From Impatiens glandulifera (taxonomy: Eukaryota > Streptophyta > Magnoliopsida > Ericales > Balsaminaceae), in contig NC_061863.1 of assembly GCF_907164915.1 (NCBI RefSeq), positions 23,389,710 to 23,453,709 on the forward strand: 64,000 nt of DNA, given 5' to 3'. Within the stretch, counting starts at the first letter, position 1. Each line of letters opens with the position of its first letter. Made by a program: the position numbers and the translations under genes. Below the pieces are notes generated by a model, which was given only the letters and a program-made list of their open reading frames with translations, did no database searches and was not told where the DNA came from. Below are positions 510 to 43,180 of this stretch, one piece after another.

Positions 510-1288
510 TGTTAGGATCAGGGACGCCCTTGGAGGACCGGGGTGTTTCCGGTTTTAAGAAGGGTGGCCGCTTACAACGCACAACACATTTTGGTGATAG
601 TCCGGTTAGAGACTATAACCGTTCTCAGCACTACACAAAATGTCACAGACTCTTGAACCGGATTCAAGGGCGGAAATGTCTGTTTCAGTTTGAAGCAACG
701 TATGCGATTTAGATGATGTTTTAGAAGGAGTCGGTTTTAGGAATATGAGTGGACCGGTTTACGGAGTATGATTAACTTGGTTTGAGGTTAGGTTAATTGA
801 GTAAGTAATGAAACGAAAGAAAGAACACGAGACAAGGATTTTTATGGATGTTCGGAGCAAACTCTCCTACGTCACCCCTCTTCTCAGGTTATGAGAAGGA
901 TCTCCACTAACTTTTATAGTTACAATAACATTGCCGGTCGAGCCCAACTCGCTACTCGCCGGTTACACCAACTTAAGCTTTTGTCTTTGCTGACCGGTCG
1001 CTTGAGAGTGTGAAAACCGGTTCCTCTGATCTCTGACTTGATCACTTGGAACTGATTTCTTTGAAGTATTTCAGCAACCGGTTTATGATGCCCCAACCGG
1101 TTCATACGATTTGATCTGTACCTACACATGAAAATTAACAACTGTTTAGTTTTTCTAGTCGGTTCCAAAAATTAACTTTACTTAATTTTTCTTATCAATT
1201 TCTCCCTTTTTGATTATTTAGAATAAATATTCAAAACTTGTAATGTGTGGCCGGTTTTAAAAATTAACTTTCTTAATTTTTCTTATCA
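510..1288 (-). repeat. 3' LTR of element 1, internally deleted
   Basis: It starts TGTTAGGATC and ends CTTATCA directly before the polypurine tract. Compared with the other LTR it lacks the segment equivalent to 13225-13760 (536 bp); the join lies at about 975/976. The missing part holds the U3 TATA box. Near its inner end the sequence 'atttctccctttttgatt' occurs at 1198 and again at 1289, about 91 bp apart, and a third partial copy follows at about 1370. The end at 1288 was chosen because the right LTR also contains two such units. Confidence 0.85.
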
Positions 1289-1302
1289 ATTTCTCCCTTT
1301 TT
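1289..1302 (-). other. polypurine tract of element 1
   Basis: On the minus strand this reads as a purine run (AAAAAGGGAGAAAT) immediately before the 3' LTR, the expected plus-strand primer site of an LTR retrotransposon. The following 1303-1525 is non-coding element DNA and holds a further partial copy of the LTR-end/polypurine unit. Confidence 0.8.
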
Positions 1303-1525
1303 GATTATTTAGAATAAATATTCAAAACTTGTAATGTGTGGCCGGTTTAAAAATTAACTTGTTTAGCGATTTCTCCCTTTTTGATCATTTTGAAGAAAAT
1401 TTTCAAAAACATGTGTTTTAACTTCAAAAAGGTATGTAGAAACTAATAAAATTAAAGGTATGATAAAACGACCAAGTTCTGAAATAAAGTTAAACATTAA
1501 TTGTTTTTAACGAAGTAAAAAGAGA

Positions 1526-4485
1526 TTATGACTTGGATGTTCCCCCCTTGTCAAGTTCTTTCTCCAGGTCTTTTTCAAGTCGCCTTCTTTCTTCCTCTTC
1601 CCTTGCTTTCCACTCCCTGTCGCGTCTTTCAGCGTCAATAAGAATTTCGGCCCACACACTTGAGATGCCGGGATTCTTTTTGCCAAATCCAAAACCGGCA
1701 CAGACTGGTTTTGGTTGATGAAGTGGTTGAGCAACAATTGGTCTGGAGCTTGTAGTTGCGGTTGACCTTTCAATTGTCCTCTTCTTGCGCCGGTTGAGTT
1801 CTTCGATATCCTCTTCTTCATCATCTTCTTCTTCATCAGTAGCAGGTTGCACATTTAGCCCGACCGGTACAATTGTTCTTTGGCTGCTTTGTTCTGCCCG
1901 CTTAATTACCTTTGCACCGCCCTTCGTTTCTTCTTGTTTCTTGTGTTCATAGTATGAGACGGTTCAGTCGGTGTGGGTTCCTAGATACCTGCCTGTTCTT
2001 CCTCGTTGCATTTCTGGGCAAGCTCATGATCTTGGTCCTCAATTTCTTTCTATAACCGTCCCTTTTCCCTTTCTTCGTCTTGCAGCCTCTTAGCGGTTTC
2101 TGCATCAGACTCGATTTGCTCTTGAGTCTTGCTTACTTGGAGTTTGGACATCTCCCCAATTTGAAAGGCCATTGCCTGCAGCATATCTATCAAAGGAGCG
2201 GTTGCGGTTTGGATGGTTTCTGCGAACAAAGATTTAACGGAGGTTTGCACAGCCTCATCTATCATGGACTTGATAGATGTTTGAACGGTGTTGGCTATTT
2301 CGGTTTGTACAGATCCCCATATAGTGTTTGACAAATTTGCTTCAGCTGTGGCAATCCTCTCATCGGTTGCCGTTTTGTAACTTCCAAGACATGAATCAAT
2401 GGTATCAATTACCGCCTACTTCATTTGATCAATTTCCGGAGCTTTAGCAGTTTGAGAAGGATCTTGTTCCAGGTTTTCCGCTGTTCTAGAAGTCTCCCCG
2501 GCAATGAAGAAAGGCTTACACTTATATAGGTCGACATTGCTAAGTTGGTGTCGGCAGCCGTTTCTCCATTGTGCATCAAGATGGTCAAGGCTTTGCAGGA
2601 GCTTTTCCCGTACTGGAAGAAACCGTTCAGACATTTTCCTTTCAATTGGAGTTAGCGTTGCTCCTTCTACTTCCTTTAATGCTTCCTCAACTGCTTGTAA
2701 CCGGGCGTATTCACGAATTACCGCGGTTTTGCTGAAGGCGGGTTGAATAAAATTTGTGTGTGCCAGCTTGAGGGCCCTTTCTTCTAACTTTATGAGTCTG
2801 TCCCAATGTTTGTTGCCGCTCATCCCTGGAACCATATCCGATAGCTTTGTCTCACAACGAAGCTTTACCCACATGAGATATGGGGAAATCACATCACTGG
2901 AACTTTTGTTCAAGTCCCTGAGGAGTTCCTCGAATAGTTCTTCCTCCTGTTCTGTTGAAAGTTTGGCCATGTCCCCGGTTAGGATTTCTGGTTGGGGGCC
3001 GGTTTGTAGAGTACCTTTTCCTGTCACCGTCGAATCTTCGACAAGGACCTCTTTTCCTTTGTTAACCTGAACTGACCCTTCAGGTATGAATGCTGAATCG
3101 ATTGGCCCATCTTGAGCCGATTGGCCTGATGTGTCCTCTGGAACTGACTTGTTCCCTGCGGAACCGGATGGTTCCTGTTCTTCAGAGTTACCCTCTTGAG
3201 CCGGAGGAGTAATGTTTGCGGTTTTGGCCGTTTCTTCGACCGGTTGAACTTCACTTTGATCGGGTATCTCAACCTGATCAACTGACTTACGACGACTTGA
3301 CACATCGTCTTCGGTTTCCCTTGTAATGTCTTGGACTATGTTCTCAATGGCTTCAGAGGTGTTTAAGCCCACGTCGACTATTACCTCTTCAATTCTTTTG
3401 CTTGGGGACTTGGAGTTTTCAGAGTTGATACTAACCTCTGCTTCCTCCTTTGACGCGGACTCGGTTTTGTGGCTCCCCGACGGTTCGGTTTGCCTTGGTG
3501 AGTTAGATGGAATAGGAATGGGACGAACGGTAATTATGGGGATGGGTTGGAAGATGTCTCCGGTTCTTTCTGGTGGATCGTCCGAGGAAAGGGTTTTCTC
3601 GGAGTCCGCCGGTTTGTTGGAGCTCTTCTTTGCAGTCGACTTCTTCCTCCCCTTTGTTTCTTGTGCGGCTTCGGCTTCAACCGCCTTTCTCTTCGGTTTC
3701 TTTTGTTTTGGACATTCTTCAACCGGAGCGGAAGAACTGGTCCCCTTGGAAGACTTCGTTCTGGAGGACTTCGGTTTAACCGCTTTGTCGGGCTTCTCAA
3801 TCATCGACTCAGAGTTGAGAATATTGTTGGGTGGGAGCGGTTCACCTTCACCAAGTTCTACATTAAGGAACTTAAGAATTTTGACGATTTGCATTGCGAA
3901 GGCCTGAACCCGGCCATCCTTCTGAATCACCATTTGGCAAAATTCTTCGAAAATAACATATCCCCAATCCACCTTTTCACCGCGGACAATGGCCATCAAC
4001 ATTTTAAGTTTAAGTTTCGTCAGGTTATCGAAGTTACCTCCTCTTCCCTGAAGTGAACGGGCGATGATGTTCAGCAGCCACCTGAACTCCGATTTCAGCT
4101 TGTTCTTCCGGCTGGAGTGGATCACCAGATCCTGATCTTCAAATGATATCACCAACCGGACAGAATTAGACTCTGCATTGGTTAGGTCGGTTTAGAGATC
4201 CAAACCGGTATTGGGCAAACCGAGAGCTTCAGCAAATAACTCCTCGGTGATCAGAATGTCCTTCCCGTTGACGGTGGCGGAGACCTTTCTCTTTGTCAGA
4301 GTCGCCGTCGCTAGAAACTCCATTACTGCCGACGGATATACAGTGAATGGACCAGATAGGAACTCCTCCAACCCAGAATCTCTTAAAGATTGAAGAACAG
4401 CCTTGTTTTTATCTTCAGCGTGTTCATCAATGTCTGCGAAATCGACTTGTAACATCCATTGGAACGGAGCTTTGCCTAGAGCCAT
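1526..4485 (-). pseudogene. accessory ORF-C of element 1 (long, coiled-coil type), interrupted
   Basis: The start is ATG at 4485 (MALGKAPFQW), chosen over upstream non-ATG starts because it follows a TATA box at 4601-4607 and aligns with the starts of the sister ORFs. Residues about 10-95 carry the shared accessory domain (LQVDFADID, then EEFLSGPF, then LPNTGLDL). The next part has the second conserved block (VDWGYVIFEEFCQMV). A long Lys/Ser/Glu-rich linker and a probable coiled coil rich in Gln, Glu and Ala follow, and then a tail with an acidic run and a charged helix (EEEERRRLEKDLEKEL). In-frame stops occur at 4194-4192 (TAA), 2418-2416 (TAG) and 2052-2050 (TAG), with the same frame open on both sides of the first two. 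A frameshift separates the last part (1852-1526). Function unknown; an env-like or nucleic-acid-binding role is speculation. Confidence 0.75.
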
Positions 4486-4600
4486 GGTAGATTTTGAGAA
4501 GAATGAATGAAGAACGATGATGATCGGAGTTTGGATTGCCTTTGAAGATCTGGAAATTTTAGAGAGAGAAAGCGTATGTGATGAATGGGCTGATTTGAAC

Positions 4601-4607
4601 TTATATA
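4601..4607 (-). promoter_or_regulatory. TATA box of accessory ORF-C, with upstream E2F-like site
   Basis: The minus strand reads TATATAAG about 116 bp before the ATG at 4485, followed by a CT-rich leader (tttctctctc). Further upstream are TTTGGCGCC (about 4656-4664, matching the plant E2F consensus TTTSSCGC), a perfect 14-bp palindrome GTTACTGCAGTAAC (4681-4694), and several copies of GGCGGTAAA between about 4698 and 4763. I see no coding sequence in 4486-4986. This looks like a separate promoter inside the retrotransposon; activity is inferred. Confidence 0.6.
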
Positions 4608-4986
4608 GACGACGGTTCCGAACGGTTGGAAGACGAACCGTCACTTGATAATGTTTTTGGCGCCAACTTTCCCTCCAAAAGTTACTGCAGTAACTTTCGG
4701 CGGTAAATGCGGAAAACCAATGGGCGGTAAATTTTGGGAGGTAAAACTGTGGGCGGTAAAATTTTCAAACTTTTCGTTTTGCTTGAGATTCCGGTTTTAC
4801 TTGATTTGTTAACCGGAAGTGTCGTTTAACATTTAGTCTTATGAACTTTAAAAACCGGAAGGAAAGATATGAATAAGAAAACCGGATAGTTTTAAAATTA
4901 GATATTTTATAAATGATAACAGATAACATCGAGCGGTTTTGGTCGTACAACAAAATGACCAAAAACCGGAAAGAAAGATAGATAAC

Positions 4987-5748
4987 TTAGTTTTCTTTAA
5001 ACCAATCCCCCTCCACCATTCTTTCGTACCACTTGTTCACGGTGTTGTCGGGTGTTCGTTCCTCAAACCTCGATATCCATCTCTCTAGCATGGATATGGT
5101 GATGGTGTTGGACGGTCCGACCGGAACACCGGGTTCAAGGTGACGACGCTGAGCCATCAGAAACCGGGTGATTTGAGGGGCGAAGCTGGTCCTTCCCCTT
5201 GAAGCGGTTATGAGCGACTTCAGGTTGTTGAAGAGATAGGATGCCCAGTTGATTGACGAGTTGCGGATGATGGCTATCATGATGTCGAAAGCCTCCCGGT
5301 TGTAGTTCTGGTTAGGCATTCGGCCCATGATAGACCTTTGAACCAAATCATGCAGGACTTGGTAATGAGGAGCAAGTTTCTCTTTCTTCCCAAAGTCCTT
5401 GATCGGTGCGTTGGAAGAGGAGAAGATCTGGAAGAAGTCTTCTTTAGCCGGAAGGAAAGGCGTTGGGAAGTCAGAAAAGCCTTCGGTTGGAAGGTGAAAG
5501 AAGTTGGCAAATTGTTCTTCGGTAATCCGAAGAAATTGGCCGTCGATGATGGTGCGGATGCTGCCATCATCTAGAATGTGACCATTGTTGAAGAACTCGC
5601 ACACCTCCTCCACGAGGATAGTGTCTGAGCCTTTGAGAAATCCTTGAAGTCCCGACTCTATGATCGGTTGGAAGATGCAGTCATGATATCTGCTATCTTT
5701 TACATCTTCGAAATCGACGATGAGAATGTTTCTGAGTTCAGCCGACAT
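4987..5748 (-). CDS. accessory ORF-B of element 1 (intact)
   Basis: This is an uninterrupted 253-residue ORF starting ATG (MSAELRNILIVDF). The open frame runs 15 codons further upstream, but only from a non-ATG codon. Its two-part architecture is shared with ORF-A and ORF-C. The N-terminal half has IVDFEDVK, ESGLQGFL, VCEFFNNG and LPTEGFSDF; the second half has YQVLHDLVQRSIMGR, MMAIIRNSSINWASYLFNNL near the middle, then GVPVGPSN and a C-terminal helix. No signal peptide, membrane span or catalytic motif is visible, so it does not look like a classical envelope protein. It is the only fully open member of the module in this window. The pattern loosely recalls the plant-transposon-associated domain in many plant proteins of unknown function; that is a recollection. 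Function unknown. Confidence 0.85.
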   Translation of the reverse strand: MSAELRNILIVDFEDVKDSRYHDCIFQPIIESGLQGFLKGSDTILVEEVCEFFNNGHILDDGSIRTIIDGQFLRITEEQFANFFHLPTEGFSDFPTPFLPAKEDFFQIFSSSNAPIKDFGKKEKLAPHYQVLHDLVQRSIMGRMPNQNYNREAFDIMIAIIRNSSINWASYLFNNLKSLITASRGRTSFAPQITRFLMAQRRHLEPGVPVGPSNTITISMLERWISRFEERTPDNTVNKWYERMVEGDWFKEN

Positions 5749-5848
5749 TGTGAGAAAGAGTGAGAAGGTTGAAGAGATTTTCTGATCGTTCAAGCTTTAG
5801 AGAGAAGGAATGCAGGAAGCGTGTTTTGAAAATGAAGGGTTGAGTCCC

Positions 5849-5856
5849 CTTTTATA
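5849..5856 (-). promoter_or_regulatory. TATA box of accessory ORF-B
   Basis: The minus strand reads TATAAAAG about 100 bp upstream of the ATG at 5748, followed by a leader with a TTCTCTCT run. The spacing is that of an ordinary plant core promoter. The gap 5749-6186 between ORF-A and ORF-B holds no other coding sequence. Confidence 0.6.
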
Positions 5857-6186
5857 GCTTGAAATGGTTGAATGCATTTAATGAGGATATTTAAAAAATC
5901 TAGCCGTTTATGTCTGGTCATTTATGACTTTGTGATTTTTCAAGAGAATAAAGACATGTCTTGTCGAATCAAGTCAGGCATGCTCATTGAGAATGAAGAT
6001 TTCTGTTTCCAAGAGTGATTTGATTTGATTTGGTACGACGCATTAAATATTTGATCATTTATGATTTTTAGATTTTTAGATTAAAGTGGAAGGAAATAAG
6101 CTTCATTAATTGTGGTACCAAACCGGTAGTACAACAAAATTACCGGTTTTGGAAAGGAAAAGAAATAAGACAGAAGGAAAGATAGG

Positions 6187-6924
6187 CTACACGTTAGATG
6201 ATTCAGCCGCTTGATTTCTTTTAGCCTTAACTGCTTCCCACCGGTCGATCAGCTCTTGTACTCTCTCTATAGTGAGCACATGCCTTGGATGGAGGGTCAC
6301 GAAGGGTCCGGAGTAGATGTCCAGACTGGCACAAAAACCGCTCAGCTGAGGAGCGTAGCCGGTTTTGTTGGAGAGGAGCATCTTCTTCAGGTTGCTGAAG
6401 ATGATCCAGGACCAATTAACCGGTGTCCCAACCGTTACAGCAATCATCATCTCGAAAAGCCTTTGGGTGTAATAGTAGCTTTTCTCTCTGCCCAAGATGG
6501 ACTTTCCAAGAATCTCACAAAGAAGCTGGTACTTGTGAGAGAGTTGTCTTTTAGCACCCCAGGGTCTAACCGGGATGTCAGAGTTTGATAACCGACAACA
6601 CATTTCTTCCATGGTCACCGGGGAGTAGGTTAAGTCGGTTACCCCTTCAGTGGGCAAACCGCAGTATACAGCGAAATCCGTCTCGCTGAATAGAAATTTC
6701 TGACCATAAACTTGTAAAACGATTATGTCTCATTGCACTTCCTTTGTGGTCTGGAAGAATTCTTCGACTACTAGGTAGTCGAGAATGAATCTGTTTTCGA
6801 GGAAGCTTCTTAGCCCGCTTCTTGCAACGGCTAAGAACATTTCTCTAACCTCATGGTCTTCATATTGGTAGATTGAGTTAAAATCTGCCAATAGAATCTT
6901 CTTTGCTAGAGAGTTGGAGTTCAT
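6187..6924 (-). pseudogene. accessory ORF-A of element 1, one nonsense codon
   Basis: ATG at 6924 (MNSNSLAKK) opens a frame that runs to 6187 with a single TGA at 6732-6730. The frame is the same before and after the stop. In the related copy at 26177 the matching position is an arginine within QVIRDD, so the stop is best read as CGA to TGA. Conserved blocks are LLADFNSIY, SGLRSFLE, VVEEFFQT, LPTEGVTDL, YQLLCEILGKSILGR and VNWSWIIFSNLKKML. The full length is about 245 codons, close to ORF-B. It is the first accessory gene after pol. Function unknown. Confidence 0.8.
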
Positions 6925-7004
6925 GTTCTTCAGAGAGAGTTTTAAGCTCAAGACTGTTTTTGTGAATAGTAATTTTGTGAGGATTTGTGAAGGTTTAAGG
7001 GTGG

Positions 7005-7012
7005 TTTATATA
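7005..7012 (-). promoter_or_regulatory. TATA box of accessory ORF-A
   Basis: The minus strand reads TATATAAA about 80 bp upstream of the ATG at 6924, with AACTCTCTCT in the leader. The pol stop is at 7628, so this promoter lies in a non-coding spacer of about 700 bp (6925-7627) that otherwise shows nothing recognisable. Confidence 0.6.
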
Positions 7013-7627
7013 GCCAGGGGTTCGGCTAGATTAGTAGGTTTAAGCATGCTTGATGATGTCATCAGATATTTAATATGCTTTAACTTGTTGAAGTAACTAA
7101 TGTTTATTTCCAAGGCAAAAACTAATTATTACCAAGATATTAATGATGACAAAGATCTATTGACATGATGTGAGTCTCCCTCTCTTGATGATGGACACAT
7201 GTCGTCATCTCGATTGTGGTAGACTATTTTCATTTATTACAGGCTTCATTTTTCAAAATATGCATGAAAACTCAGTTGGTCATCCCAGGTTAACCGGAGA
7301 AGTTCATTTCATCAGACCAGAATGCATTTGTACTAAGCGGTTTTCCATGACCGGTTTTAGTAGGATATTTTGGTCCGATTGTGAAGAAATGTTGAGTTAC
7401 GTCAACATTTGTTCATCTTTGGATTTAGTATATCCACTTCAACCTGGTTATTTCAACCGTATAGTAAGTATACATGTGATTTGAAGTTATGAAGTAATCA
7501 GGCATAACCGGAGACTTCCTCCCGGTTAGCATTTTTGAATTATCAATGGCCTATTTGAATATGGTTTGAGAAGCGAGAGCTTCTCCCTGAACACATATCC
7601 CGGTTTCTCATTGTTATGCATGCATAA

Positions 7628-10600
7628 TCATGATATGAGTTGATTAAGATTAGTAAGTCCCAAAATATTTCGAAAGTGAGAAAACTTAGCTTCCTGTAGC
7701 GGTTTCGTGAATATATCCGCTACTTGTTGCTCGGTCGAGACGTATTCCAGCCGAATGTGTTTCTCCTGAACGTGCTCCCGGATGAAATGGTGTCTTATAT
7801 TAATATGCTTTGTTCTTGAGTGCAACACCGGATGGTATGTAATTGCTATAGCACTGGTGTTGTCACAGAAGATTGAAGATTCCTTGGCTTCTATCCCGAA
7901 GTCCCTTAGTTGCTGTTGAATCCAGAGAAGTTGTGCACAGCAGCTCCCGGCCGCTATGTACTCTGCCTCTGCGATTGATGTTGCAACAGATGTTTGTTTC
8001 TTGCTGCTCCAAGTGACTAACCGGTCACCTAAGAACTGGCAGGTCCCACTTGTGCTCTTTCTATCGATCTTACATCCTGCGTAATCGGCATCTGAGTAGC
8101 TTATGAGATTGAAACTCGAGTCTTTTGGATACCAAAGTCCCATTTCTTGAGTTCCCTTTAGATATTTTAAGATTCTTTTGGCCGCAGTATAATGTGATTG
8201 CTTTGGATTTGCTTGGAATCGTCCGCATACTCCAACCGCAAACAGAATGTCAGGTCGGCTGGCTGTTAGATATAGCAACGATCCGATCATTCCTCGATAT
8301 GCTGTGATGTCAACGGCTTGACCATCATCATCTTTGTCCAATTTTACAGAAGGACTCATCGGCGTAGTCGCTTCAGCGCATGTATCCATTCCAAATTTCT
8401 TCAACAGTTCGGCTGTATACTTTGGTTGGCTTATGAAGGTTCCGGCTTCAATCTGCTTAACCTGGAGTCCTAGAAAGAAACTCAATTCTCCCATCATACT
8501 CATTTGAAATTTGTCAGTCATCATTTTTGAAAACTTATCACATAACTTTGGATCGGTTGATCCGAATATAATATCATCGACATAAATCTGAACAAGTAAT
8601 ATTTGTTCCTTTCTTTCAAATTTGAAAAGTGTTTTGTCTACCGAACCTAATGTGAACTTGTGATCAAATAAAAATTGTGTCAATGTATCATACCAAGCTC
8701 TTGGAGCTTGTTTCAAACCGTAAAGGGCTTTGTTCAGCCGGTAAACATGATTTTCGTGTTCTGGATTTTTGAAACCTAGAGGTTGATTAACATATACCTC
8801 TTCATTTACTTTACCGTTTAGAAACGCACTCTTAACATCCATTTGAAAAACTTTGAAATTTTTAAAAGCTGCATATGCTAAGAATATTCTAATGGCCTCA
8901 AGTCTAGCTACAGGGGCAAATGATTCTTCAAAATCAATGCCTTCTTCCTGTTTATAGCCTTGAGCCACTAACCGGGCTTTGTTCCTCGTAACTAAACCGT
9001 CTTCATTGAGTTTATTTCTGAATACCCATCGTGTCCCTATAACCGGTTTGTTTTTCGGTCTAGGAACTAGGTACCAGACTTTATTTCTCTCAAACTCGTT
9101 TAATTCCTCTTGCATTGCTAGGATCCAATCGGGATCTGACAATGCTTCATCCACCTTTTTCGGCTCAATTTTTGATATGAAAGCTGAGTTTTCAAAGTGA
9201 TCCAAATTCTGTTGCCTAGTTCGGACGGATGAGGATATGTTACCTATTACTAGTTCAAGAGGATGCTTTTTGTTCCTTCTGAGGTTAATCCGAGACGTGT
9301 CTATCAAGCTTTCGGTTGGCTGATCAAGGTTAGACTGATCGGTAGGTTGAACAGAGTCAGACCGACCGATTTCTTCAGTAGAAACTGAAGAGTCAACTTT
9401 CTACGGTAAAGCAGCTTGATCAGGCAGAGTTTCAGCATCAACCGCTTGGTCCTTGACAAATCGTCTAAAAACCGGAACCTCGTCTTCATCATCAGAATAG
9501 ATATTAAAATTTTCCATTCTGTTGTGAAGATCGAAGGGTAATGCAGTGTTTCGTTCAACCGATTCATCGAAAACAACGTGTGCGGTTTCTTCAACTGTTA
9601 AAGTTCTAGTATTGTATATTCTGTAGGCTTTACTCACAGCTGAATATCCCAACATTATTCCCTCATCGGATTTAGCATCAAAGGCGGTGAAGTAATTCTT
9701 GCCATTATTGTGAACAAAACATTTGCTACCAAAAATTCGAAAGTACCGTACGCTTGGAATTTGATCAAAGTAAATTTTAAAAGGAGTTTTAGAAAATCGT
9801 TTAGTTACTAAAGATCGGTTTTGTGTATAACATGCGGTATTGATAGCTTCAGCCCAAAACTTTTGAGCAATACCCGAATCAGCTATCATTGACCTTGCGG
9901 CTTCCTTGAGAGTTCGGTTTCTTCTCTCAGCCAGGCTGTTTTGTTGAGGAGTTCTGGAACTAGACAACTCGTGTCTAATACCGGAATCATCAAGAAAAGT
10001 AGTTAAATTACTGTTTAATAACTCAGTTCCTCTATCACTTCTGATTTTGTTCACTCGAAAATATTTTTCATTTTGTATTCTGAAAATCAGTTTAATCAGG
10101 TTTGGAGTTGCTTGGCTTTTAGAAGCTAGAAAAGTAACCCAAGTAAATTTAGAATAATCATCAATAACTACCATAGTATAATGCATGCCTCCTAAACTAG
10201 TTACTTTAACCGGACCAAACAGATCCATATGCAAAAGTTCTAAGCATCGTTCAGATTGATAGTTTCCTTTACTTTTGAAAGATGACTTTATTTGTTTACC
10301 CATTTGACATGCAACACATACTTTATCTTTTGAGAACTTAACATTTGGAAAACCGTGAACTAGTTCCTTAGAACATATGAAGTTAATTATTTTGAAATTC
10401 AAGTGATTTAACCGTTTATGCCAAAGCCAGTTTGGATCATTTCCGGCTATCATACACACAGGTTTTTCAAAATCGGTTTTCCAATTAACTTTTTAATATT
10501 TCTCATCCGGTTACCGGTTAAAAGAATATCATTATCCTGATTTTTAACTAAACATGCGTTTTTATGAAATTCAACTTTGTAACCCACATCACACATTTGA

Positions 10601-10839
10601 CTTATACTTAACAAGTTAAAATGTAGTTCTTCTACCAATAACACATTACTTATGGATAGATTACCATGGACAATCTTACCCTTGCCCACGGTTTTACCTT
10701 TCGAGTTGTCCCCGAATGTTATGATTGCTCCGGTTTCATACTTGATGTCGGTTAGTAGCTCTTCGTTTCCGGTCATATGCCTTGAGCATCCACTGTCCAG
10801 GTACCATTCTGAATTCTTTAGCCGGTTGCTCCTCCTAAC
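7628..10839 (-). pseudogene. copia pol of element 1 (protease, integrase, RT, RNase H)
   Basis: Read on the minus strand. The protease active site is YLDSGCSRHMTG (about 10800-10770). The integrase zinc region is WHKRLNHLN then CVACQMGK. Its catalytic core has HMDLFGP, IRSDRGTE and the glutamate in SLAERRNR. RT has [10 protein letters not shown] and YVDDIIFGS. RNase H has [16 protein letters not shown] and FCDNTSAIA, and the protein ends near 7628. Two defects are visible. One is a single-base frameshift near 10480 between protease and integrase. The other is an in-frame TAG near 9403-9401, where element 2 has a Gln-rich stretch. All catalytic residues I can see are kept. The open frame extends upstream only to a TAG at 10842-10840. 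The start is set by how gag-pol is expressed and is uncertain. Confidence 0.9.
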
Positions 10840-10879
10840 CTACAACAAACAATTATTTACACCTTTTTGGTACCCACAT

Positions 10880-22297: not shown

Positions 22298-25200
22298 ATC
22301 AATGATAATATTTGGTGACAACTCCAAAGGTGAAGCCATGGGCAAGGATAAGATTGTCCACGACAACCTAACCATAAACAATGTATTACTTGTTGAAAAC
22401 CTACACTTTAATCTACTAAGTATTAGTCAAATGTGTGATATAGGATATACGGTTAAATTTCATAAACAAGCATACTTAGTTAAGAATCAATAAGGTAGTA
22501 TTTTACTAACCGGAAATAGGTTAGGAAACATTTACAAGGTAGAATGGAAAACTAAATGTGATAACCCTATTTGCATGATAGCTAAGAATGATCAAAATTG
22601 GTTGTGGCACAAAAGACTAAATCACTTGAACTTCAAAACAATAAACTTCATCCACACTAAAGAATTAGTTTAAGGTATTCCTAATATACAATTTGCAAAA
22701 GATAAAATATGTCATGTCTGTCAAATGGGAAAACAAATTAAATCAACATTTAAAAGTAAAGGGAATACTCAATCTAACCGATGCTTAGACTTACTTCACA
22801 TGGATCTTTTCGGACCAATTAGAGTAACAAGTCTAGGAATATTGCATTATACTATGGTAATTATTTATGACTATTCTAGATACACTTGGGTTATATTCTT
22901 AGTATCTAAAAATCAAGCTACTCCAAATCTGATCAAGATGCTTAGAAGAGTACAAAATGAGAAATTTGTACGTGTTAATAAAATTAGAAGTGATAGAGGT
23001 GCTGAATTTACTAATAGTACTCTAACTACATTTCTTGAGGCGTCTGGTATTAGACACGAGTTGTCTAGTGCTAGAACCCCTCAACAAAATGGACTGACTG
23101 AGAGGAAAAATTGAACCCTCAAGGAAGCTGCAAGATCCATGATAGTCGATTCGGGCGTTGCTAAAAAATTATGGGCAGAAGCTATCAACACTGCATGTTA
23201 CACTCAAAATCGGTCTATGATTAATAAAAGTCTCAACAAAACACCTTTTTAAGTATACCATGACAAGGATCCTAATATCCGGTATCTTAGGATCTTTGGC
23301 TGTTGTTATATCCATAACAATGACAAAAAAATTTGAATTCTTTTGACGCTAAATCCGATGTTGGTATCATGTTAGGGTATTCTGAAGTTAGCATATAGAG
23401 TGTACAATACTAGGACTCTTACTGTTGAAGAATCATCACACATTGTCTTTGATGAATCTGTTGAAAGTAATACTGCTTCATCCATTGATCCACACAACAA
23501 TTTGGAAAATTTAAATATTCAATTTTATTGTGAAGATGAGGTTCCGGTCTACAAAAGATTTATATATGACCAGCGGTTAACGCTGAGAATCAACAGGATC
23601 AAGCTGCTTCACAGCAGGAAGTTGACACCTTAGAGACTGCTGAGGAAACCGGTCGGCCTGACAATGATCAGCCTACCGGTCTGTCTAACCTTGATCAAAT
23701 AACCGATCACTCAGAAAACATAGCTGGACCAAATTTTAAATAGAACAAAGATCATCATCCTGAGCTTATTATAGGTAACCCCTCTTTACCCATCCGAACT
23801 AGGCATCAATTGTTAGAAGAATATGAAAAACATCATTTATCTCATAGATTGAACCTAAAAGGTGGATGAAGCATTGCTGGATCCCGATTGGATATTAGCA
23901 ATGCAAGAGGAATTAAATCAGTTTGAGAGAAATAAAGTCTGACACTTAGTTCCATGACCAAAAATCAATCGGTCATCGGAACAATATGAGTGTTTAGAAA
24001 TAAACCCAATGAGAACGGTTTGGTTACGAGGAACAAGGCTAGACTAGTGGCCCAAGGATACAAACATGAAGAAAACATTGATTTTGAAGAATCATTGGCT
24101 CCTGTTGCTAGACTAGAGGCCATTAAAATCTTTCTTGCATTCACTGCTTTCAAAAATTTCAAAGTTTTTTAAATGAATGTTAAAAGTGCTTTCTTTAAGA
24201 ATTGAGTGAAGAAGTATATGTTGAGCAATCGCTTGGTTTCAAAACTCCTGATCTAATTAGTCATGTCTACAGGCCAGATAAAGCACATTACGGTTTAAAA
24301 CAAGCCCTTAGAGCATGGTATGAGACACTGACAAAGTTTTTGTTCAATCATGATTTCACCATAGGATCGGTAGATAAGACCCTATTCAAATTTGAGAAAA
24401 AAAGAACAGATTTTACTTGTTCATATCTATGTTGATGATATCATTTTCGGTTCAACAAATCCTAAGTTATGTGAAATTTTTTCTAAAATGATGACTGACA
24501 AGTTTGAAATTAGTATGATGGATGAATTGAGTTTCTTCTTGGGTCTTCAGGTTCGGTAAATCGAAGGAGGAACGTTCATAAATCAATCCAAGTATTCAAA
24601 AGATCTATTAAAGAAATTTGGCATGGATAGTTGTTATGCTGCATCTACCCCAATGAGCTCCTCAATCAAATTAGACAAGGATGAAGACGGTCAGGGTGTT
24701 GATATTACAGTTTATTGTGGAATAATCGGCCCACTTCTATACCTAACAGCAAGTCGACCGGACATCCTATTCGTAGTAGGAGTATGTAGGAGATTCCACG
24801 CTAACCCAAAACAATTTCATTATACTACTGCTAAACGAATATTAAAATATCTTAAGAGAACTCAAGATGTGGGACTATGGTATCCAAAAGATTCAAATTC
24901 AATTTAACAAGCTACTCTGATGCAGATTATGCAGGATACAAAATACACCGAAAGAGTACCAACAGGACATGCCAATTCCTAGGTGATCGACTTGTCTCAT
25001 GGTATAGCAAGAAATAGACATCAATTGCAACTTCAATTGTAGAGGCAGAGTATCTTGCGGCTGGCAACTGCTTTGCTCAACTCCTCTGGATTCAACAACA
25101 ACTAAGGAATTTCAGCATTATAGCTAAAGAATCACCGATCTTCTGCGACAACACAAGTGCTATTGCTATCACATATAATCCGGTATTGCATTCAAGAACA

Positions 25201-26176: not shown

Positions 26177-26420
26177 ATGTATCCTACTCTCTCAAACAAT
26201 CTTCTGGCAGACTTTGAGTCAGCTCTATCTTGTGAAGACAATGAAGTTTTTGCTATGTTCAGGTCTCTTCAGGCAATTGGCCTAAGAACTTTCCTTAAAG
26301 ATCGGTATTTCATAAATACCGGAGTTATTCGTGAATTTTTCCAAACCGCTCAAGTAATCCGTGATGATCTTATCCTTTCCACTATTCGAGGTCAGAAGTT
26401 TTTCTTCAGTGAGATAGATC
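26177..26420 (+). pseudogene. accessory ORF-A of element 3, truncated by element 4
   Basis: ATG MYPTLSNNLLADFESAL, then IGLRTFL, VIREFFQTA, QVIRDDLIL and RGQKFFFSEIDL. It aligns with ORF-A of element 1 and shows arginine where element 1 has a TGA. Coding similarity ends at 26420, exactly where the LTR of element 4 starts (TGTTGGGTC), so the insertion cut the gene. The downstream half is not seen. Confidence 0.82.
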
Positions 26421-27971
26421 TGTTGGGTCAAATTATTTTAACTAAGGGTCAAAGTATTCTGACTAATGGAATTTTGATAATAAGTTTGTTTAAAACTTAA
26501 ACTAAGCCGTCTAATAGTTTTTGGTACAAGTGTATCGAAACAGACGTAGTTAGATGTGCAGTCTAACAGATACGTAGTTAGACGTGCAGTCTAATAGACG
26601 TAGTTAGACATGCAGTCTAACATATACGTAGTTAGACATGCAGTCTAACAGATGTAGTTAGACGTGTAGTCTAACAAACGTAGTTAGACGTGCAGTCTAA
26701 CAGACGTAGTTAGACGTGAAGTCTAACAGATATGTAGTTAGACGTGAAGTCTAACAGATACGTAGTTAGACGTGCAGTCTAACAGATACGTAGTTAGATG
26801 TATAGTCTAATAGATACGTAGTTAGACGTGTAGTCTTACAGACGTAGTTAGACGTGCAGTCTAATAGATACGTAGTTAGACGTGCAGTCTAATAAATGAA
26901 AGTTAGACGTGCAGTCTAACTCCTTTAGATTAGTCTGAAGGGAAGCGTAGTTAGACGTTCCGTCTAACAGATAAGAGTTAGACGTGCAATCTAACTCCTT
27001 CAAATTAGTCTGAAGGGAAGCGTAATTAGATGTGTCGTCTAATCCTATTAGACCAGGTGGTCTAATGGATCCTGCTATTAGACGTGGGTGTCTAATTTCA
27101 TTAGACTTGTCAGTTTAAGTGAAAAACGTTTAACTAGCATCCGTCTACCCATGATCAAAACTGTATGCTACTCCTGCTCCACTTTTCCGTGCAGAGCAGT
27201 ACGACAGCCAATTGCAACCAATTAACTAATGCCACGTAAGCAAATATTCTTCCCACTACTTGTTTCTTGTAGGAATATCCTAGAAGAATATTTGGCGTGC
27301 TACCATATTGGTACGACCACGATCCTGGTGCTTAGAGTCTGTTGTACCTGTGTACTATGGAGGCGTTCCAATGGAAGTTCGCCACGTGTCATTATAGAAG
27401 ATTCGACCGTTGGTACCTACTCTCTATATAAAGATCTTCAAGGACAACGGAAGAACTACTAGACACAATTGCTGAATACTGAGAAATACACATACGAGAT
27501 ATCCACTGAATTTACAATCTTAAGAACTGCTTTCTTGCTTTTACTGTGTGTACATCAAAAGAGTGTTAAAATCAAAGTATTGTCTAGTTGAGTGATATTT
27601 TTCAATATATTATAAGTTGAACAGAGTTTGTTCTGTTCAACAGTGAGCTAGCCGTGTAACCGTATTTGATTCTAAGAAACGTATAGTGAATCCTTCCGGT
27701 GGTTGGAAGAAGGGGTGACGTATGAGAGTTTTGCTCCGAAAATCCATAAACAAACAGCTGTGTCATTTACATTCTGTCATTTTCTCATTCTTTGGTTCTT
27801 AGCTTCAAACTTGAGCAAATGTTTCCGCACTTGAATCGTTCAAGAGTTTGCAAGGGTTTGTGAAGAATAGAAAGTTATTTAAATCCCTAACAGGATTTCT
27901 ATCAACTCATTTGTCCGAAGTCGTCATCAATAGACAGATCCCCATCTGTACCGATTACACCGATCCTATCA
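26421..27971 (+). repeat. 5' LTR of element 4
   Basis: 1551 bp, TGTTGGGTCA to CCTATCA. It carries a dyad-repeat array in U3 (26540-27115), a TATA box TATATAAA at 27425-27432 and, in U5, the dyad CTTGAATCGTTCAAG (27830-27844). It aligns along its length with the solo LTR 31918-45436 read on the minus strand, which confirms both ends. Confidence 0.85.
26540..27115 (+). repeat. tandem array of dyad units TTAGACGTGCAGTCTAA
   Basis: About 18 copies of a 17-bp near-palindrome are separated by short linkers of the type CAGATACGTAG or CAGACGTAG, giving spacings of about 20-30 bp. Variants keep the outer TTAGAC and GTCTAA arms and change the core. A second dyad (TTAGTCTGAAGGGAAGCG) occurs twice. The array lies upstream of the LTR TATA box, in U3. 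Confidence 0.9.
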
Positions 27972-28020: not shown

Positions 28021-29164
28021 ATGTCTATCATCAATGAGATCCTTCTTCTTTTGAGAGACAACTGCGAATATTGGATGATGAGAATGCAAGCTCACTTGGT
28101 TGCTCTTGATTATGACATGTGGAGCGTCATTACCTATGGTCCCATAAACATTTCGAAGCCAAGATGCGAGTGGACCCTTGAAGATAAGATGATAAATAAC
28201 CTGGACAATGTGCCCAAAAATATTTTGTATCAATCGATCAACATGAACATATTCTACGAGATCAAGTCATGTTCCTCTGCTAAAGAAATTTGGGAGAAGC
28301 TGACTCAGATCTACAGTCGAAATGTTCAAGCCAAGAAGAACCAGAAGGACCAAAAAGTTTTCATGTATGTTGAAAACAAATTCAAATGGGTCGAAAGCGA
28401 TTTAGAGGAGTTTCTTGTTGAAAAGGATACTGAAACTGTAACATGCTTGATGGAAGACGATCAATCCAAGGTAAATGATGTTTCCCCACCAGAATTTACC
28501 AACGAAGAGTTAACAACTGCACTCAATAAAATGACCATTGAGTACAAGAAGTTATCAGATTCTTTTTATGAAATGAAAGTAAAACATGAGGCCAATATTT
28601 CTTCTTCACACAAAACTTTTGAATCAAATGTTTTTGAAAAGAAAGTAGTAGAGATCTCATCCGAAAACAAAAGGTTAAACTATGTTGTTAGTGCTTGGAC
28701 GAGGTCTGGAGAAGCTGTCAAATATCAGATTAGTCTGTTGAAACCCGCTGGATCTAAATCCGGTTTACGATTTGATGGACCCAAACTAGTCCTGCAAAAC
28801 GTCAAACTCAACAACTGACAAGCTTAAGCCAATAAGCTTTGTCAAAGGGAGTTTAACTGACAGTGAATCTGATCCAATTCATGAAGAATTAGCTTTGAAG
28901 AATGAAATAACTTATGTTCCGTCGACTGTTAGCTGACTGAAAAATAAGTTAGAAGTAGCTAGCAAGTCTGGCAATCTAAAATTTGGCAAGAAGTCAAGAA
29001 TTTCTAAAAGAAAATCATCTTCAAAGACTAAGGGATCAGTGGCTAGCAGGATGGCGTCTGCTATGTCAAAATCATACGCATTAATCACAACACAAAATGG
29101 AAAATTCATCAGAATAACTCAAATATGGATTCCTAAAGGACTGATTGACCGAGGACCCAATTGA
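28021..29164 (+). pseudogene. copia gag of element 4, internally deleted
   Basis: ATG at 28021 (MSIINEILLLLRDN). The capsid-like N-terminal domain is recognisable (YWMMRMQAHLVALDYDMW, SAKEIWEKLTQIY). At about 28340 it joins directly to the acidic C-terminal region (PPEFTNEELTTALNKM). Most of the second capsid part and the zinc knuckle are therefore missing. The frame stops at 28818 and continues in another frame to the conserved end IWIPKGLI..GPN-TGA at 29164. Confidence 0.8.
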
Positions 29165-31917: not shown

Positions 31918-32775
31918 TGATAGGATCGACTTTATCGATAGAGACAGGGGTCTGGCTATTGATGAAGGCTTATGAAAAACGGTTTGAATCTTGTTAGGGA
32001 TTTAATTCGCTTTCTATTCTCCGCAAACCCTTGTAAACACTTGAAACAGAATCAAGGCGGAATTGTTTACTTAGGTTTGAAGCTCAAAATGAAGAATGTG
32101 AAGATGACAGAAATGAAAAGACACAGCAGTTTTTTTATGGATGTTCGGAGCAAACTCTCCTACGCACCCCTTCTTCCAACCACCGGAAGGATTCACTATA
32201 ATATTATTCGAATCAAATACAGTTTGCACACACTTAGCTCACTATTGAATAGAACACACTATGTTCAATTTACAAGATGAAGAATATCACTCAGCTAAAG
32301 GTGTTTTTGATTCTAGCACTCTCTTGATTCATACACAGTACAATCAGGAAAGCAGCTTGCAGCTTGAATATTCAAAAGATTGATTTCTCAGTAGTTCTTC
32401 TCAAATAGTATTTCTTAGTTGATCGAATGGCAGTTCGTCCGTTGTCCTTGAGATTTGATAAATATTCAGCAGAGACTAACGATCGAATCTTCAGAATGAT
32501 ACGTTGCACTCTTCCATTGGAAAGCCTCCATAGTACACAGCAGGTTCTGAGCATAGGGATCATGGTCGTACATCCACTAGTAGTGCGCCGAATATTCCAT
32601 CAGAGATGTACCTGCAAAACAAGTAATGTGAGGGAAATTCTCTTACGTTGCATTCGTTGGTTGGTTACGTATAGCTATCGTACTGATCTTCACTAGAAAG
32701 TGGAGCAGGAGTAGAGTACAGCTATAGCACGTGGGTAGGCGGGTGCTAGCTTCAAGCATACTACTTAAGCATAGT

Positions 32776-33946
32776 TGTTAGGATCTAGGTCGCGGATGGG
32801 GGACCGGGGTCTGACCGGTTTGCACTCAAAGATTGGTGTTTAATCCGGTTAGAGATTAATACCGGGGTTTCAATACTATACAAACTGTCACAAACCCTTG
32901 AACCTAGTTCAAGTGCGGAAGTGGTTTGTTTCAGGTTGAAGCAGCACACACACAGGATGAATTGGACCGGATTTGGATAAAGTCGGTTTGGAGTTTGGTG
33001 GGTCGGTTTGGGATTCAGTAAATCGGTTTAAGTGATGTTGAATCGGTTAGAACGGTATGAGTCGGTTAGTATAGATCGGTTAGAATATAAAGCCGACAAA
33101 ATGTAAAGAACAAGACAGGTTTATATGAATGTTCGGAGATAAAGCTCCTACGTCACCCCTTCCTCTCGAAACCGCGAGAAGGGTATTCACTAAGGAATAC
33201 ACAAACACAATCCGATCGAGACTTATTTGCTGCTCGATAACACTCGTACAATTCTCACCGAAATTGTAATCTCACTTAAAATACACGCTTAAACTCTTTT
33301 AATTTAGAGAGATAAATATCACTTATGACTTAGGTTGGTGCAGCTCTTAAATGTTTTCTCTTGTAACTTGTAAATTCTAGAACTGCATTTAGTCCTCTTT
33401 AGCTCCTTCTTTTATAGGTGAAATGTGCCAACAGTCACATTTCATCTCCTTAAATTTGATTGGTTTAGCAGAGATTTAGTGATTCAGACCTGGCGGTTTA
33501 GGCTTCCAGTGTGTAGGTCAAACCAGCTAGGTTTGTCTTTTACTTGATATGGCAACTTTCGGTTAGACAGTTGCCTGCATCTGGAGGGTTGCGCCTTTGA
33601 TTTATCCCGGAGTGGAAAGATCTTGTCGGACGGTCTTCTGCAGCCTGTAGATTGTCCTCAGACTTCTATGAATATGGCAATACTAAGGTCTGTCCGTTTG
33701 GTATCATCTTCAACAGATACTCAAAGTATCTATTTGCACCGATCGGTTGTTTAGGTTAACCGGATGACTTCCGGTTTTGGTCTTCTTTTCTGACCGGTCT
33801 TGTCTTCTTGATCGGTTAGGTTCTTGGCCGGTTGTATTGCTTGACCGGTTGAATTACTTGACCAAACCTAATTCTTTAACCGTTCTCCTGCATAGGAAGT
33901 TTGTTTTGTTAGGTTCTTATTTTTATTCGGTCTAATTTATCTAACA
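32776..33946 (-). repeat. 3' LTR of element 2
   Basis: 1171 bp, TGTTAGGATCTAGG to TATCTAACA. TATA box TATAAAAG (minus) at 33409-33416, U5 dyad CTTGAACCTAGTTCAAG at 32897-32913, many CCGGTT repeats near 33740-33870. Confidence 0.92.
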
Positions 33947-33960
33947 ATTTCTCCCTTTTT
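33947..33960 (-). other. polypurine tract of element 2
   Basis: AAAAAGGGAGAAAT on the minus strand, directly inside the 3' LTR. A second, partly duplicated copy ('tttcttcctttttgatt') lies about 165 bp further in (near 34110). 33961-34251 is otherwise non-coding. Confidence 0.82.
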
Positions 33961-34251
33961 GATTATTTTATTTAAAATATTCAAAAGCATGTAAGAATGA
34001 AAATGTAGGCCAGTTTCTTTAAAAGTTCATTTGGCCGGATTTTTGGAAAATGACTTAGAAATAAATTTTGAAAAATTTGAGAAAATTTTTATAATTTTAT
34101 CTTTATCAATTTCTTCCTTTTTGATTATTTTATTTAAAATATTCAAAACCATGTAAGAATGAAAATGTAGGCCTGTTTCCAAAAATACTTGATATATATA
34201 AATAAAATTATACTAAGGTAAATATAGGTAATATATAATTAAAGAAAGCCT

Positions 34252-35082
34252 CTATTTCTTCTTCTTGGGCAGGTATTTTTCCAGCATTTCTTCAGTCGCC
34301 TTTCCCTTGACCACTGGAGCAGGCCTGAAGGAGGATCCTTGACCGCCTGAAGTACCGGTGAAAGGTGAAACCGGTGGAGCAAACGATCTAAGTGGAATCG
34401 CTTCAAGACCTCGCGGTATTTTGGTCAGCGGTACGGTTTCTTCCTCGAGATCGTCATCTTTTTGCGAAACCGGGTTGATTGGAGGATCGACAACCGCTTC
34501 AGCAACGTTGTCCAATAGCTTTGAAATTGCCGCTCTCACATAGGTTGGTGAAGACTACCTTTGCCCAGTTAATTTTAGTGCCGTTGACTAAACCGGTAAT
34601 CATGTCGATCTGCATTTGGGTAAGACTATCATAGTTGCCTCCCCGTGCTTGATCCGACTTAGACAGGATCTCGCATAGCGGTCTAAGTTCCGGTTTGAGT
34701 GAAGTTTTTTTACCGTACACTGCTATTGGTACCACAGTATCCGATACATCCCGGAAAACCACTTGGAATGTATCCTCGTCTATAAACACTGAGAAGTCGT
34801 TCCCCTCGGTTAGCAGATGGAGGACCTCAGCAACCGACTCCATGGTGAGTTTGAACGGTTTACCGCCTACTGTTGCGGTTATCGTTCCTTCGCTGAGTGC
34901 GGTGGTTTGAAGAATTCGGTAACCGCTTCTTGATACATAATGAACGGTCCGTTCAAGAAATGTTCAAGACCGGACTCAAAGATTTGGGTTAACACCCGTT
35001 TAGCTTACGCCGATCCATTTGCTCGAATTTTATCGAAATCGACCTGGACAATGTGGGTGAAAAGCACAGATTCATGACCCAT
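34252..35082 (-). pseudogene. accessory ORF-C of element 2, broken and internally shortened
   Basis: ATG at 35082 (MGHESVLFTHIVQVDFDKI). A TAA follows after residue 25, and a one-base loss in the EFF(Q) motif near 34910 shifts the frame. The domain continues as LLTEGNDFS and INWAKVVFTNLCE, then joins near 34530 to a C-terminal tail ending YLPKKKK. Compared with ORF-C of element 1 the long linker and coiled-coil part are missing, so the gene was shortened internally. Confidence 0.72.
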
Positions 35083-35192
35083 TGTGAGTTGAAGAGACCG
35101 AGAGATCGAGAGCGTGAGAGAGTTTAGAGATTTGAAAGCTAGAGAGAGAAAGCCGTTTCGCGTAAGAATGAAGTAAAATGACTAAGGACCAT

Positions 35193-35199
35193 ATTTATA
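35193..35199 (-). promoter_or_regulatory. TATA box of accessory ORF-C, element 2
   Basis: TATAAAT on the minus strand about 110 bp before the ATG at 35082, with a leader rich in CTCTCT. Upstream (35240-35400) are TTTGCCGCC and TTCCCGCCC, resembling E2F sites, and several AACCGCTTC/AACCGC repeats. Confidence 0.55.
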
Positions 35200-35577
35200 G
35201 TCGCGGGTTGGAATCTCAACCGCCGCGAACTGTCACATCAGATTTGGGCGGTTATTTTCCCTCCAAAATGACTTTGGGAGGCAAGCGATGGGCGGCAAAC
35301 ATTGGGCGGGAATTTGATGCGGTTATTTAACTGGTGATGAAGCGGTTATTTAATGTAGCCGGTCTATTTATGAGACGGTTATTTAACTGGTGATTTAAGG
35401 AAGCGGTTAGCGTTTTTAACCGGTTGATCATTTAGACCGATATTCTAATAATATAATTTTGACTCGGTTTTCGAATTAGAAATTTAAATGATCATTCAGT
35501 AAAAGAGAGCATAATAGAGACCGATACACAGATCGGTTTAAATTACACAAGATACAGGATTATAAATCATGTAATGA

Positions 35578-36263
35578 CTATTTTAGAGAGTTTGTCCTCC
35601 ACCCCTTCCTCGTGGAGAATATTTGATAGGTACGTCGGGGTACCCGGTCCAAGATTTGGATGGTGTGTACGAAGGAACCGACTGATGTGGGGGACATAGC
35701 CGAAACCTTTGTTTCGACCATGGTCTTCAAGTTATTGAAGATGAACGATGACCAATTGATGGGGGTGTTGCTGATGATGTAGGTCATCATGTCGAAGACT
35801 TTCTTGGAATAGTGTTGGTTCGGAGATTGGCAGATGATGGATCGGTTGACGATCTCGTGAAGGAGTTGGATGTGATGGGCGAGGCGAGTTTTCAGACCGT
35901 AGTTCTCCACTGGTACTTCGGTTCCGAAGAAAAATTCCGCGTAGTCAACGCTGCACTCCCAACCCGGGATGGGAAATCGGAGAACCCTTCAGTGGGCAGA
36001 CGGAACATTCGGGAGAATTCGCTTTCGTGAAGAACAAAGGTGTGGTTCTTCACGATAGAGGTAATGGCATCGCCGGAGATGGATGCATTATTGAAGAATT
36101 CCATTACCTCTGGAATGAAGAGGGGTCCCGATTCTTCGAGAAAATCACGAAGGCCGGTGTCGATGAGAGATTCAAAGAGGAGTTCCTTCACTTCAAGATC
36201 CTCAACTTTGAGGACGGAGTCGAAATCAATGCAAAGATATTTTCTTAGAGTACGGTTCGACAT
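35578..36263 (-). pseudogene. accessory ORF-B of element 2, one frameshift
   Basis: ATG at 36263 (MSNRTLRKYLCIDFDSV). Conserved blocks are LIDTGLRDFLEE, VMEFFNNAS, FRLPTEGFSDF, then a frameshift near 35900, then QLLHEIVNRSI and INWSSFIFNNLKTMV to a stop at 35578. It is closer to ORF-B of element 1 than to its neighbours A or C, e.g. LPTEGFSDF in both. Confidence 0.8.
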
Positions 36264-36351
36264 TCTTTCAAAAAAAATTGTTAAGAGAGAGAGAGAGTTT
36301 AAGAAATTATAAGTTGTTTGGAGGTATGTCAAATTGATAAAGGGGGGTTCC

Positions 36352-36687: not shown

Positions 36688-37428
36688 TTAATTGCCGGAG
36701 GAGTTGAGATGACGGTTCTTCCTTTTCCAGGCCTTCTCGAACCGCTCATAGAACGAGTCGGCAACTTCCCTAGTTATGACTTGGATCTGGTTTAGCCCTT
36801 CGCCCGGACAGAGTGGAACCCCGAGTTCCATGAGTAGGCAGCTGATTTGGGGAATGAGACCGGTACGGCGAGTGGTGATCATCCAGATCAAGACATCAAA
36901 CAGCACCCTGGACCAGTTGACCGGCGTATCTGTTTTGATAACGGTCATCATGTTGAAAACTGTGGTACAGTAAGTGTTGGTCACATCCTTACCCAGGATG
37001 CCCCGACCGATGATATCATTGAGAAGCTGGTATTCAGCTCTCAGTGATGACCTAGCACTGTGGTCACTGACCGGACGATTTGACCAAGAGAAGTTCAGGG
37101 AGATTTCGGCCTTTAGTTCGGCCGGAACGTTTAGATCGGTAAGCCCTTACTTCGAAAGGTCGAAGCACCGGGAAAATCATTCTCCGAAAAGTCAAACATG
37201 GTCTCCAACCCTTGATTGAATAAGGGTGTCAAAGTACGGAGTACCGCGGAAGACCCTTGCATTGTAGAAGAACTCCAGAACGGTTTCAGGGAAGATGACA
37301 TGTTTGTCATCTAAAAAGGATTTTAGACCAGTGTCTTCAAGAGACTTGATCATTTTGAATATCTCGTAATGTTCAGTTCCTTGAGCAGACTTGAAATCAA
37401 CTTGGAGAATGTTTTGAAACTGAGACAT
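36688..37428 (-). pseudogene. accessory ORF-A of element 2, frameshifted
   Basis: ATG at 37428 (MSQFQNILQVDFKSAQ). It keeps LEDTGLKSFLDD, VLEFFYNARVF, then loses frame near 37195 and again near 37140. The second half is clear: YQLLNDIIGRGILG, VNWSRVLFDVLIWMI, GVPLCPGE. Confidence 0.78.
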
Positions 37429-43178: not shown

Positions 43179-43180
43179 AT

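Follow-up and report, generated by a model that had tools for sequence, protein, structure and literature searches.

What does a Ty1/copia retrotransposon do with three related genes placed between pol and its 3' long terminal repeat (LTR)? The question is raised by element 1, which lies in a 64,000-nt window of the 653.9-Mb Impatiens glandulifera genome (C2:23389710-23453709). A first-pass annotation had assigned to this element three same-strand open reading frames (ORFs), A, B and C, with one domain pattern. Three regions of one strand, which follow the end of pol (7628) and precede the 3' LTR, are indeed homologous to one another, with the motifs DF, GL..FL, EFF, LPTEG and NW...F.NL in register across the aligned sequences, but B is the sole intact gene among them. 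An in-frame TGA splits gene A into open parts at 6924-6733 and 6729-6190, and three in-frame stops plus a frameshift break gene C into pieces at 4485-4195, 4191-2419 and 2415-2053 and a final one at 1963-1529 in another frame, so that neither is an ORF as annotated. Past its domain, gene C continues with a lysine-rich low-complexity region and then a C-terminal part that is coil-like by eye only, and it contains the basic clusters KKPKRK and RKKSTAKK, which we take to be nuclear-signal-like.

The resemblance among the three genes is strong. Within the window, tblastn gave E values of 2.6e-25 for A-B, 3.7e-19 for B-C and 4.6e-13 for A-C, and the corresponding Smith-Waterman scores, calculated after X had been inserted at the stop to rejoin the broken A and C, were 268, 196 and 165. 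The highest shuffle scored 61 and 0 of 500 shuffles reached any of these values, which rules out chance resemblance. Ten columns were invariant in a mixed A, B and C alignment of 15 members.

The description of a copia element with three paralogous accessory genes holds, and neither of the two findings named beforehand as refuting it was obtained: the homology is strong, and the arrangement is present beyond this copy. Element 2, at about 32775-44351 of the window, has its own A'-B'-C' set in the same order, which the first-pass annotation had missed, and its B' is the best window match of B outside B itself (E 8e-39). Across the genome we analyzed eight close element-1-type copies (L001-L008) and 30 loci of the Pfam family PF20167, to which A, B and C belong (L009-L038). 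The A-B-C order is found in all eight close copies; a paralogue lies directly 5' of the C-type gene in 27 of the 30 other loci, L022, L030 and L031 being the exceptions, and an A gene follows the end of pol, ahead of B and C, in 11 of 12 further-upstream stretches from these loci (10 cases from single stretches, the eleventh from L080 and L039 together; L079 showed nothing). The genome search with B returned 18,845 first-look candidates, 150 of which were scored; all 150 were 83-100% identical, and the matched stretch was stop-free in 92 by hand count. Open versions of the genes also occur: A homologues are open for 245 aa in L003, L005, L006 and L008, B genes of 235-237 codons are open in other copies, and among the 150 scored PF20167 genome matches there are open frames of up to 962-1037 aa, which we take to be C-type by length alone. 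At L031, a PF20167 gene lies about 900 nt past the end of gag with no pol match between them, perhaps marking a non-autonomous element that retains an accessory gene; at L030, a partial reverse transcriptase match is soon followed by a C-type gene, and neither A nor B is matched in the intervening sequence.

In a maximum-likelihood tree built from 29 domain rows, labeled by best match and locus position, A formed one clade (6 rows, 96/94), as did B (10 rows, 99/95) and likewise C (13 rows, 100/99). Seven representatives stood for the 17 rows of L001-L008, and early stops removed 7 of another 10 A rows; long branches, among them that of the A row of L022, were flagged by the tree tool. Because each clade holds both element-1-type and element-2-type members, the triplication, by this tree, predates the divergence of these types. 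Reverse transcriptase pieces of the two types are mostly 75-90% identical to that of element 1, while the accessory proteins are far more diverged, with B-type genes of L009-L038 often 38-43% identical to B; proteins only 24-41% identical to B fall into the three clades.

The Nei-Gojobori dN/dS ratio among the element-1-type copies was 0.16 for A (n=8), 0.10 for B (n=8) and 0.17 for C (n=7, with L004 left out for a broken match). Across the PF20167 loci, after those without a start or of doubtful type had been excluded, ratios of means were 0.16 for the C domain (23 loci) and 0.27 for B (19 loci). The choice of loci by protein similarity biases such ratios downward and dS values above 1 are unreliable, but the ratios still show purifying selection on all three genes. 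We regard the triplication, its relative age and its maintenance in this genome as well supported by these sequence comparisons.

Each gene is also preceded by a TATA-like box. TATAWA occurs 68-122 nt before the ATG in seven of seven A, B and C starts of the window. TATAWA or TATWTAA at -150 to -50 precedes 10/10 A, 27/29 B and 31/32 C starts (68 of 71, which are not independent trials because the loci are related), compared with 10.6% of random positions drawn from these loci (870 of 8200), and was also found at two of three unclassified starts and at 10/10 further A genes. The pattern had been widened to TATWTAA after we had seen the second-type B genes, which by eye are mostly TATTTAA; TATAWA alone gave 53 of 76 starts versus 171 of 2050 control positions. 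A stronger point than the counts is that distinct boxes are common to types whose proteins differ strongly. By eye, TAATATATAAG precedes A of the element-2 type and CCTATTTAAGRAGCC most B of that type, and most C starts have ACCGCC..TTTTGGAGGGAAAC..TTTGGCGCC, then TATAAATA, then a CTCTCT-rich leader, with a GGAGGGAAA..TTGGCGCC block upstream of TATAAATA. Of the 34 starts examined at the C position, which include the non-C-type L022 and L031, 25 carry GGAGGGAAA and 25 carry TTGGCGCC, at -173 to -205; the two sequences occur 29 and 30 times, respectively, in all 147,427 nt of loci. The two C promoters of the window hold five of its seven matches to TTSSCGSS (one palindrome counted twice), a consensus of E2F type, and all five CCGCCCA. 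When whole upstream stretches were compared, E1A-E3A (z 6.6), E2A-E3A and E1C-E2C (both z 4.0) and E2B-E2C (z 3.2) stood out, and the remaining 17 of 21 pairs did not. Every gap between pol, A, B and C holds stops in all frames, which disfavors read-through from pol; read-through or stop suppression, as reported for SIRE1 (PMC2829016), is ruled out on this ground. Judged from the sequence, separate promoter-like regions of A, B and C are well supported in this genome.

Table 1. Coordinates of element 1, its genes and promoter-like features, and of related genes elsewhere in the window
Feature	Position	Strand	Remarks
Element 1	510-14074	minus	Ty1/copia, LTR-bounded
5' LTR, element 1	12758..14074	minus	from alignment with 3' LTR
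LTR end / primer binding site junction CA/AGTGG TATCAGAGC	12744..12759	minus	sequence of element 1
gag ORF with zinc knuckle	10880..12508	minus	Retrotran_gag_2 7.2e-21; zf-CCHC 0.0013, just under its own cut-off
Integrase part of pol	9401..10459	minus	gag_pre-integrs 6.2e-15; rve 8.2e-11; SH3_retrovirus 1.3e-21
Reverse transcriptase / RNase H part of pol	7628..9307	minus	RVT_2 2.9e-78
TATA-like box, gene A	7005..7012	minus	86-88 nt before ATG
Gene A	6187..6924	minus	PF20167-type domain; one in-frame stop here
TATA-like box, gene B	5849..5856	minus	108 nt before ATG
Gene B	4987..5748	minus	253 aa, intact; PF20167-type domain
Conserved C-promoter element TTTTGGAGGGAAA..TTGGCGCC	4657..4680	minus	GGAGGGAAA and TTGGCGCC recur across starts
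TATA-like box, gene C	4600..4607	minus	122 nt before ATG
Gene C	1526..4485	minus	PF20167-type domain at the N-terminus (4485 to about 3799); broken by a frameshift and three in-frame stops
Three AAAAAGGGAGAAAT copies, polypurine-tract-like	1197..1382	minus	two ahead of 3' LTR edge, one just inside
3' LTR, element 1	510..1288	minus	from alignment with 5' LTR
Gene A', element 2	36691..37428	minus	broken; TATA-like box at -68
Gene B', element 2	35581..36263	minus	broken; TATA-like box at -95
Gene C' domain part, element 2	34535..35082	minus	broken; TATA-like box at -117
A-type gene 5' part, third decayed copia element	26177..26497	plus	44% over 54 aa to A; TATA-like box at -70

Element 1 is flanked on both sides by the 5-bp duplication GATAT (505-509 and 14075-14079), and its LTRs align in stretches of 468 nt (98.1% identical) and 313 nt (97.8%). 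The 5' LTR contains 536 nt, at 13225-13760, none of which is in the 3' LTR. The integrase part (10459-9401) lies 5' of RVT_2 (9307-7628), the order of Ty1/copia. At the junction of the 5' LTR and primer binding site we found the Sirevirus form CA/A(T or G)TGG TATCAGAGC, and CA/AGTGG TATCAGAGC is a variant given for Sirevirus (PMC2829016). The polypurine octamer AGGGGGAG was not found near the 3' LTR; three copies of AGGGAGAA lie within 100 nt of its edge, two of them followed by AT/TG, and the variant octamer described for two Sireviruses (PMC2829016) differs from AGGGAGAA. The CGG-CCG boxes of Sireviruses have their counterpart in the LTR and linker, where CCGG occurs 15 times in the 1.3-kb 5' LTR (shuffle mean 2.1, maximum 6) and 14 times in 2.0 kb of non-coding linker (mean 2.4, maximum 7), an enrichment that extends to the coding parts, with no clustering ahead of the env-like gene shown; AACCGG boxes are enriched in the element as well. 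Because junction, attachment site and boxes agree, element 1 looks SIRE-like, although the exact polypurine octamer does not match. SIRE-type elements had first been set apart as carrying a single env-like ORF; here there are three genes, but the element itself looks SIRE-like, and the case is more one of a triplicated env-like ORF of this lineage than of another sort of element. PMC2829016 further names as Sirevirus traits an inverted repeat about the terminal polypurine tract and a polyC-rich integrase signal.

The family to which A, B and C belong is listed in Pfam as Transposase_32, 'Putative plant transposon protein'. Against its profile, B scored E 0.025 (14.9 bits), C1 0.0019 (18.6) and C2 0.095 (13.0), all below the gathering cut-off of 45 bits, and the open 3' part of gene A gave no match; the window's genes were assigned via their homology to relatives that pass the cut-off. 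These include the A-type protein of L022 (48.8 bits), the C-type protein of L013 (50.2 bits) and 43 of the 150 scored genome matches. Two other A-type proteins score 14.0 and 19.2 bits, and no B-type protein among those tested passed when taken alone. All 15 members of the mixed alignment match PF20167 at E up to 1, the best at 8.7e-14. A protein database search gave one match for B and two for the alignment, all of them I. glandulifera gene models. The Athila ORF1 model PF03078 had no match in the genome, in a search without a positive control.

To explain these observations we favor, with slightly less than even confidence, a SIRE-like Ty1/copia element whose triplicated, selected and self-promoted accessory genes act in a VANC-like manner as anti-silencers. 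VANC is the sequence-specific anti-silencing protein of VANDAL transposons. One env-like accessory gene of a SIRE-like copia family would long ago have been triplicated into the tandem A, B and C, which would since have been kept under selection, each being transcribed from its own internal TATA promoter and not by read-through from pol. Like VANC, the proteins would act in the nucleus as DNA-binding regulators of their element: by recognizing boxes that are specific to the family and recur in its LTRs and linker (here AACCGG), they would keep the element expressible. In C, the shared domain is followed by a C-terminal part that is long and basic. A bolder version, which we hold to be doubtful, is that PF20167-type 'envelope-like' genes of plant retrotransposons are not envelopes but the counterpart of VANC: each element would have three diverged, separately promoted DNA-binding anti-silencers, each reading a different box class, with the C promoter driven in dividing cells by E2F-like sites.

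The comparison with VANC comes from the predicted structure of B, whose best fold match is VANC21. The match is moderate and without significant sequence support, VANC21 is absent from the fold matches of the A model, itself a poor one, and neither a search of the 15 members for PF09331 (DUF1985) at E up to 1, which gave no match, nor hhalign against DUF1985 (P 0.15, with 9 of 100 shuffles as high) revealed a relationship. Because no sequence similarity to DUF1985 was found, A, B and C are not classed as VANC. Fold searches of viral models returned no match with E under 0.88, and searches of PDB sequences with two family profiles gave weak matches to other proteins only. In the same genome, L042-L059 and other loci carry DUF1985 (VANC-family) genes genome-wide, many of them open for 519-538 aa and with near-equal scores, which suggests that an element family carrying a VANC-like gene of its own was mobile until recently.

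As the first-pass annotation had also noted, no piece of A, B or C shows a membrane span (Kyte-Doolittle means over 19 residues peak at 1.27), and a retroviral-type envelope with a membrane span is ruled out by this hydropathy. The lack of any strongly hydrophobic stretch, the basic clusters of C, presumably nuclear-signal-like, and a PF20167 domain whose best predicted fold match is a DNA-binding protein make it very unlikely that the three proteins are env-like as in retroviruses, that is, surface or movement proteins for exit or passage between cells, even though the position between pol and the 3' LTR of a SIRE-like element is the ENV-like site (PMC2829016, PMC3414828). They may instead assist the particle as structural or nucleic-acid-binding proteins (chaperone, Gag-like or RNA-binding) and not act against silencing, a possibility we take seriously without expecting it to be right. 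That the genes are useful to the element is shown by selection and by the high copy number, whichever step they serve, and the DNA binding by A, B and C that the anti-silencing reading needs is a prediction; on the other side, separate conserved promoter-like regions suit timed regulators over parts co-made with gag-pol, and the predicted fold match to VANC21 points in the same indirect way.

The origin and expression of the genes admit two further alternatives. Spliced env-like mRNAs have been proposed for Ty3/gypsy elements (cited in PMC2829016), and A, B and C could likewise be expressed from spliced LTR transcripts, with the TATA boxes idle. This seems improbable given TATA-like boxes at 68 of 71 starts versus 870 of 8200 random positions, albeit in related loci, and the conservation of box surroundings by gene type, as seen by eye. 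Host gene fragments captured by this single copy are hardly conceivable as the source. The I. glandulifera models 'protein DEK-like' and 'serine/arginine repetitive matrix protein 1-like' are indeed similar to portions of C, and the end of a 'pleiotropic drug resistance protein 1-like' model corresponds to the tail of B, but the DEK-like model reads by eye as C at full length, all 150 scored of the 18,845 first-look B candidates are at least 83% identical, and A, B and C are ancient clades in the tree. Capture of host exons by one copy is refuted by copy number and tree, and the conserved gene order agrees; the three models (P0001-P0003) look like transposon genes annotated as host.

Other features were noted in the window. 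Two bacterial-type small-subunit (SSU) rRNA pieces (369.6 and 133.3 bits, Rfam) at 21374-22345 (+) adjoin a decayed copia element, and Rfam gave nothing beyond them; their best matches in a plasmid collection are cyanobacterial records at 82-85%, and they are probably an old plastid DNA insert. The palindrome TTAGAC(N4-6)GTCTAA occurs at 38 places in the window and forms arrays at 26578-27078, where the spacing is mostly 26-28 bp, and at 44371-45248; these two regions are inverted copies of each other and flank element 2. Open frames are present at 28021-28818 (+; 265 aa) and 62982-63998 (+; at least 339 aa).

Among known systems, the closest in layout are the Sireviruses, which often carry an ENV-like gene with transmembrane and coiled-coil domains as shared traits (PMC3414828). 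As with the Sirevirus ENV-like gene (eORF-3'F), A, B and C lie in sense between pol and the 3' LTR, and the likeness extends to CA/AGTGG TATCAGAGC, the AT/TG attachment, several polypurine tracts and palindromic CGG-CCG boxes (PMC2829016); the differences are three paralogous genes, each with a TATA-like box, and the octamer AGGGAGAA in place of AGGGGGAG. The same source describes the internal ENV promoter of Sireviruses as hypothesized and supported but never conclusively identified, and expression of env-like genes from such a promoter now becomes testable, with a conserved candidate at nearly every gene. According to a SIRE survey (PMC6317226), 74% of elements have a 3' sense ORF, these ORFs form 19 groups with little or no mutual similarity, and the question is whether they came from several sources or evolved very fast. 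Since in this genome proteins 24-41% identical to B form three ancient selected clades, our comparison favors fast evolution from one source. The survey took in only ORFs of at least 250 codons, so that A (245 codons) and B (235-237 codons) would escape it. We found no published case of a copia element with three paralogous accessory genes, in a search that covered few subscription papers.

More distant parallels come from other transposons. A sunflower Ty3/gypsy Athila element has an ORF partly similar to PF20167 and called related to Athila ORF1 (PMC11728184); this Athila 14 ORF(+) shares the domain family, and differs in that here the element is copia and the gene is present in three copies. 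The Grande accessory gene and Retand TRP28, the latter predicted to bind DNA (PMC11963269), are antisense ORFs of Ty3/gypsy elements, unlike the sense A, B and C, and TRP28 belongs to PF04195 and not to PF20167. VANC21 and VANC of VANDAL DNA transposons (DUF1985) are, like A, B and C, encoded by the element, and VANC21 is the best match of the predicted B fold, although the transposon class is another and sequence similarity is not significant. The targets of VANC21 are short motifs repeated in the non-coding DNA of its own element (PMC5735166). If the VANC-like fold is real, anti-silencing by an element's own protein would not be confined to DNA transposons but would also be found in a major class of retrotransposons of plants.

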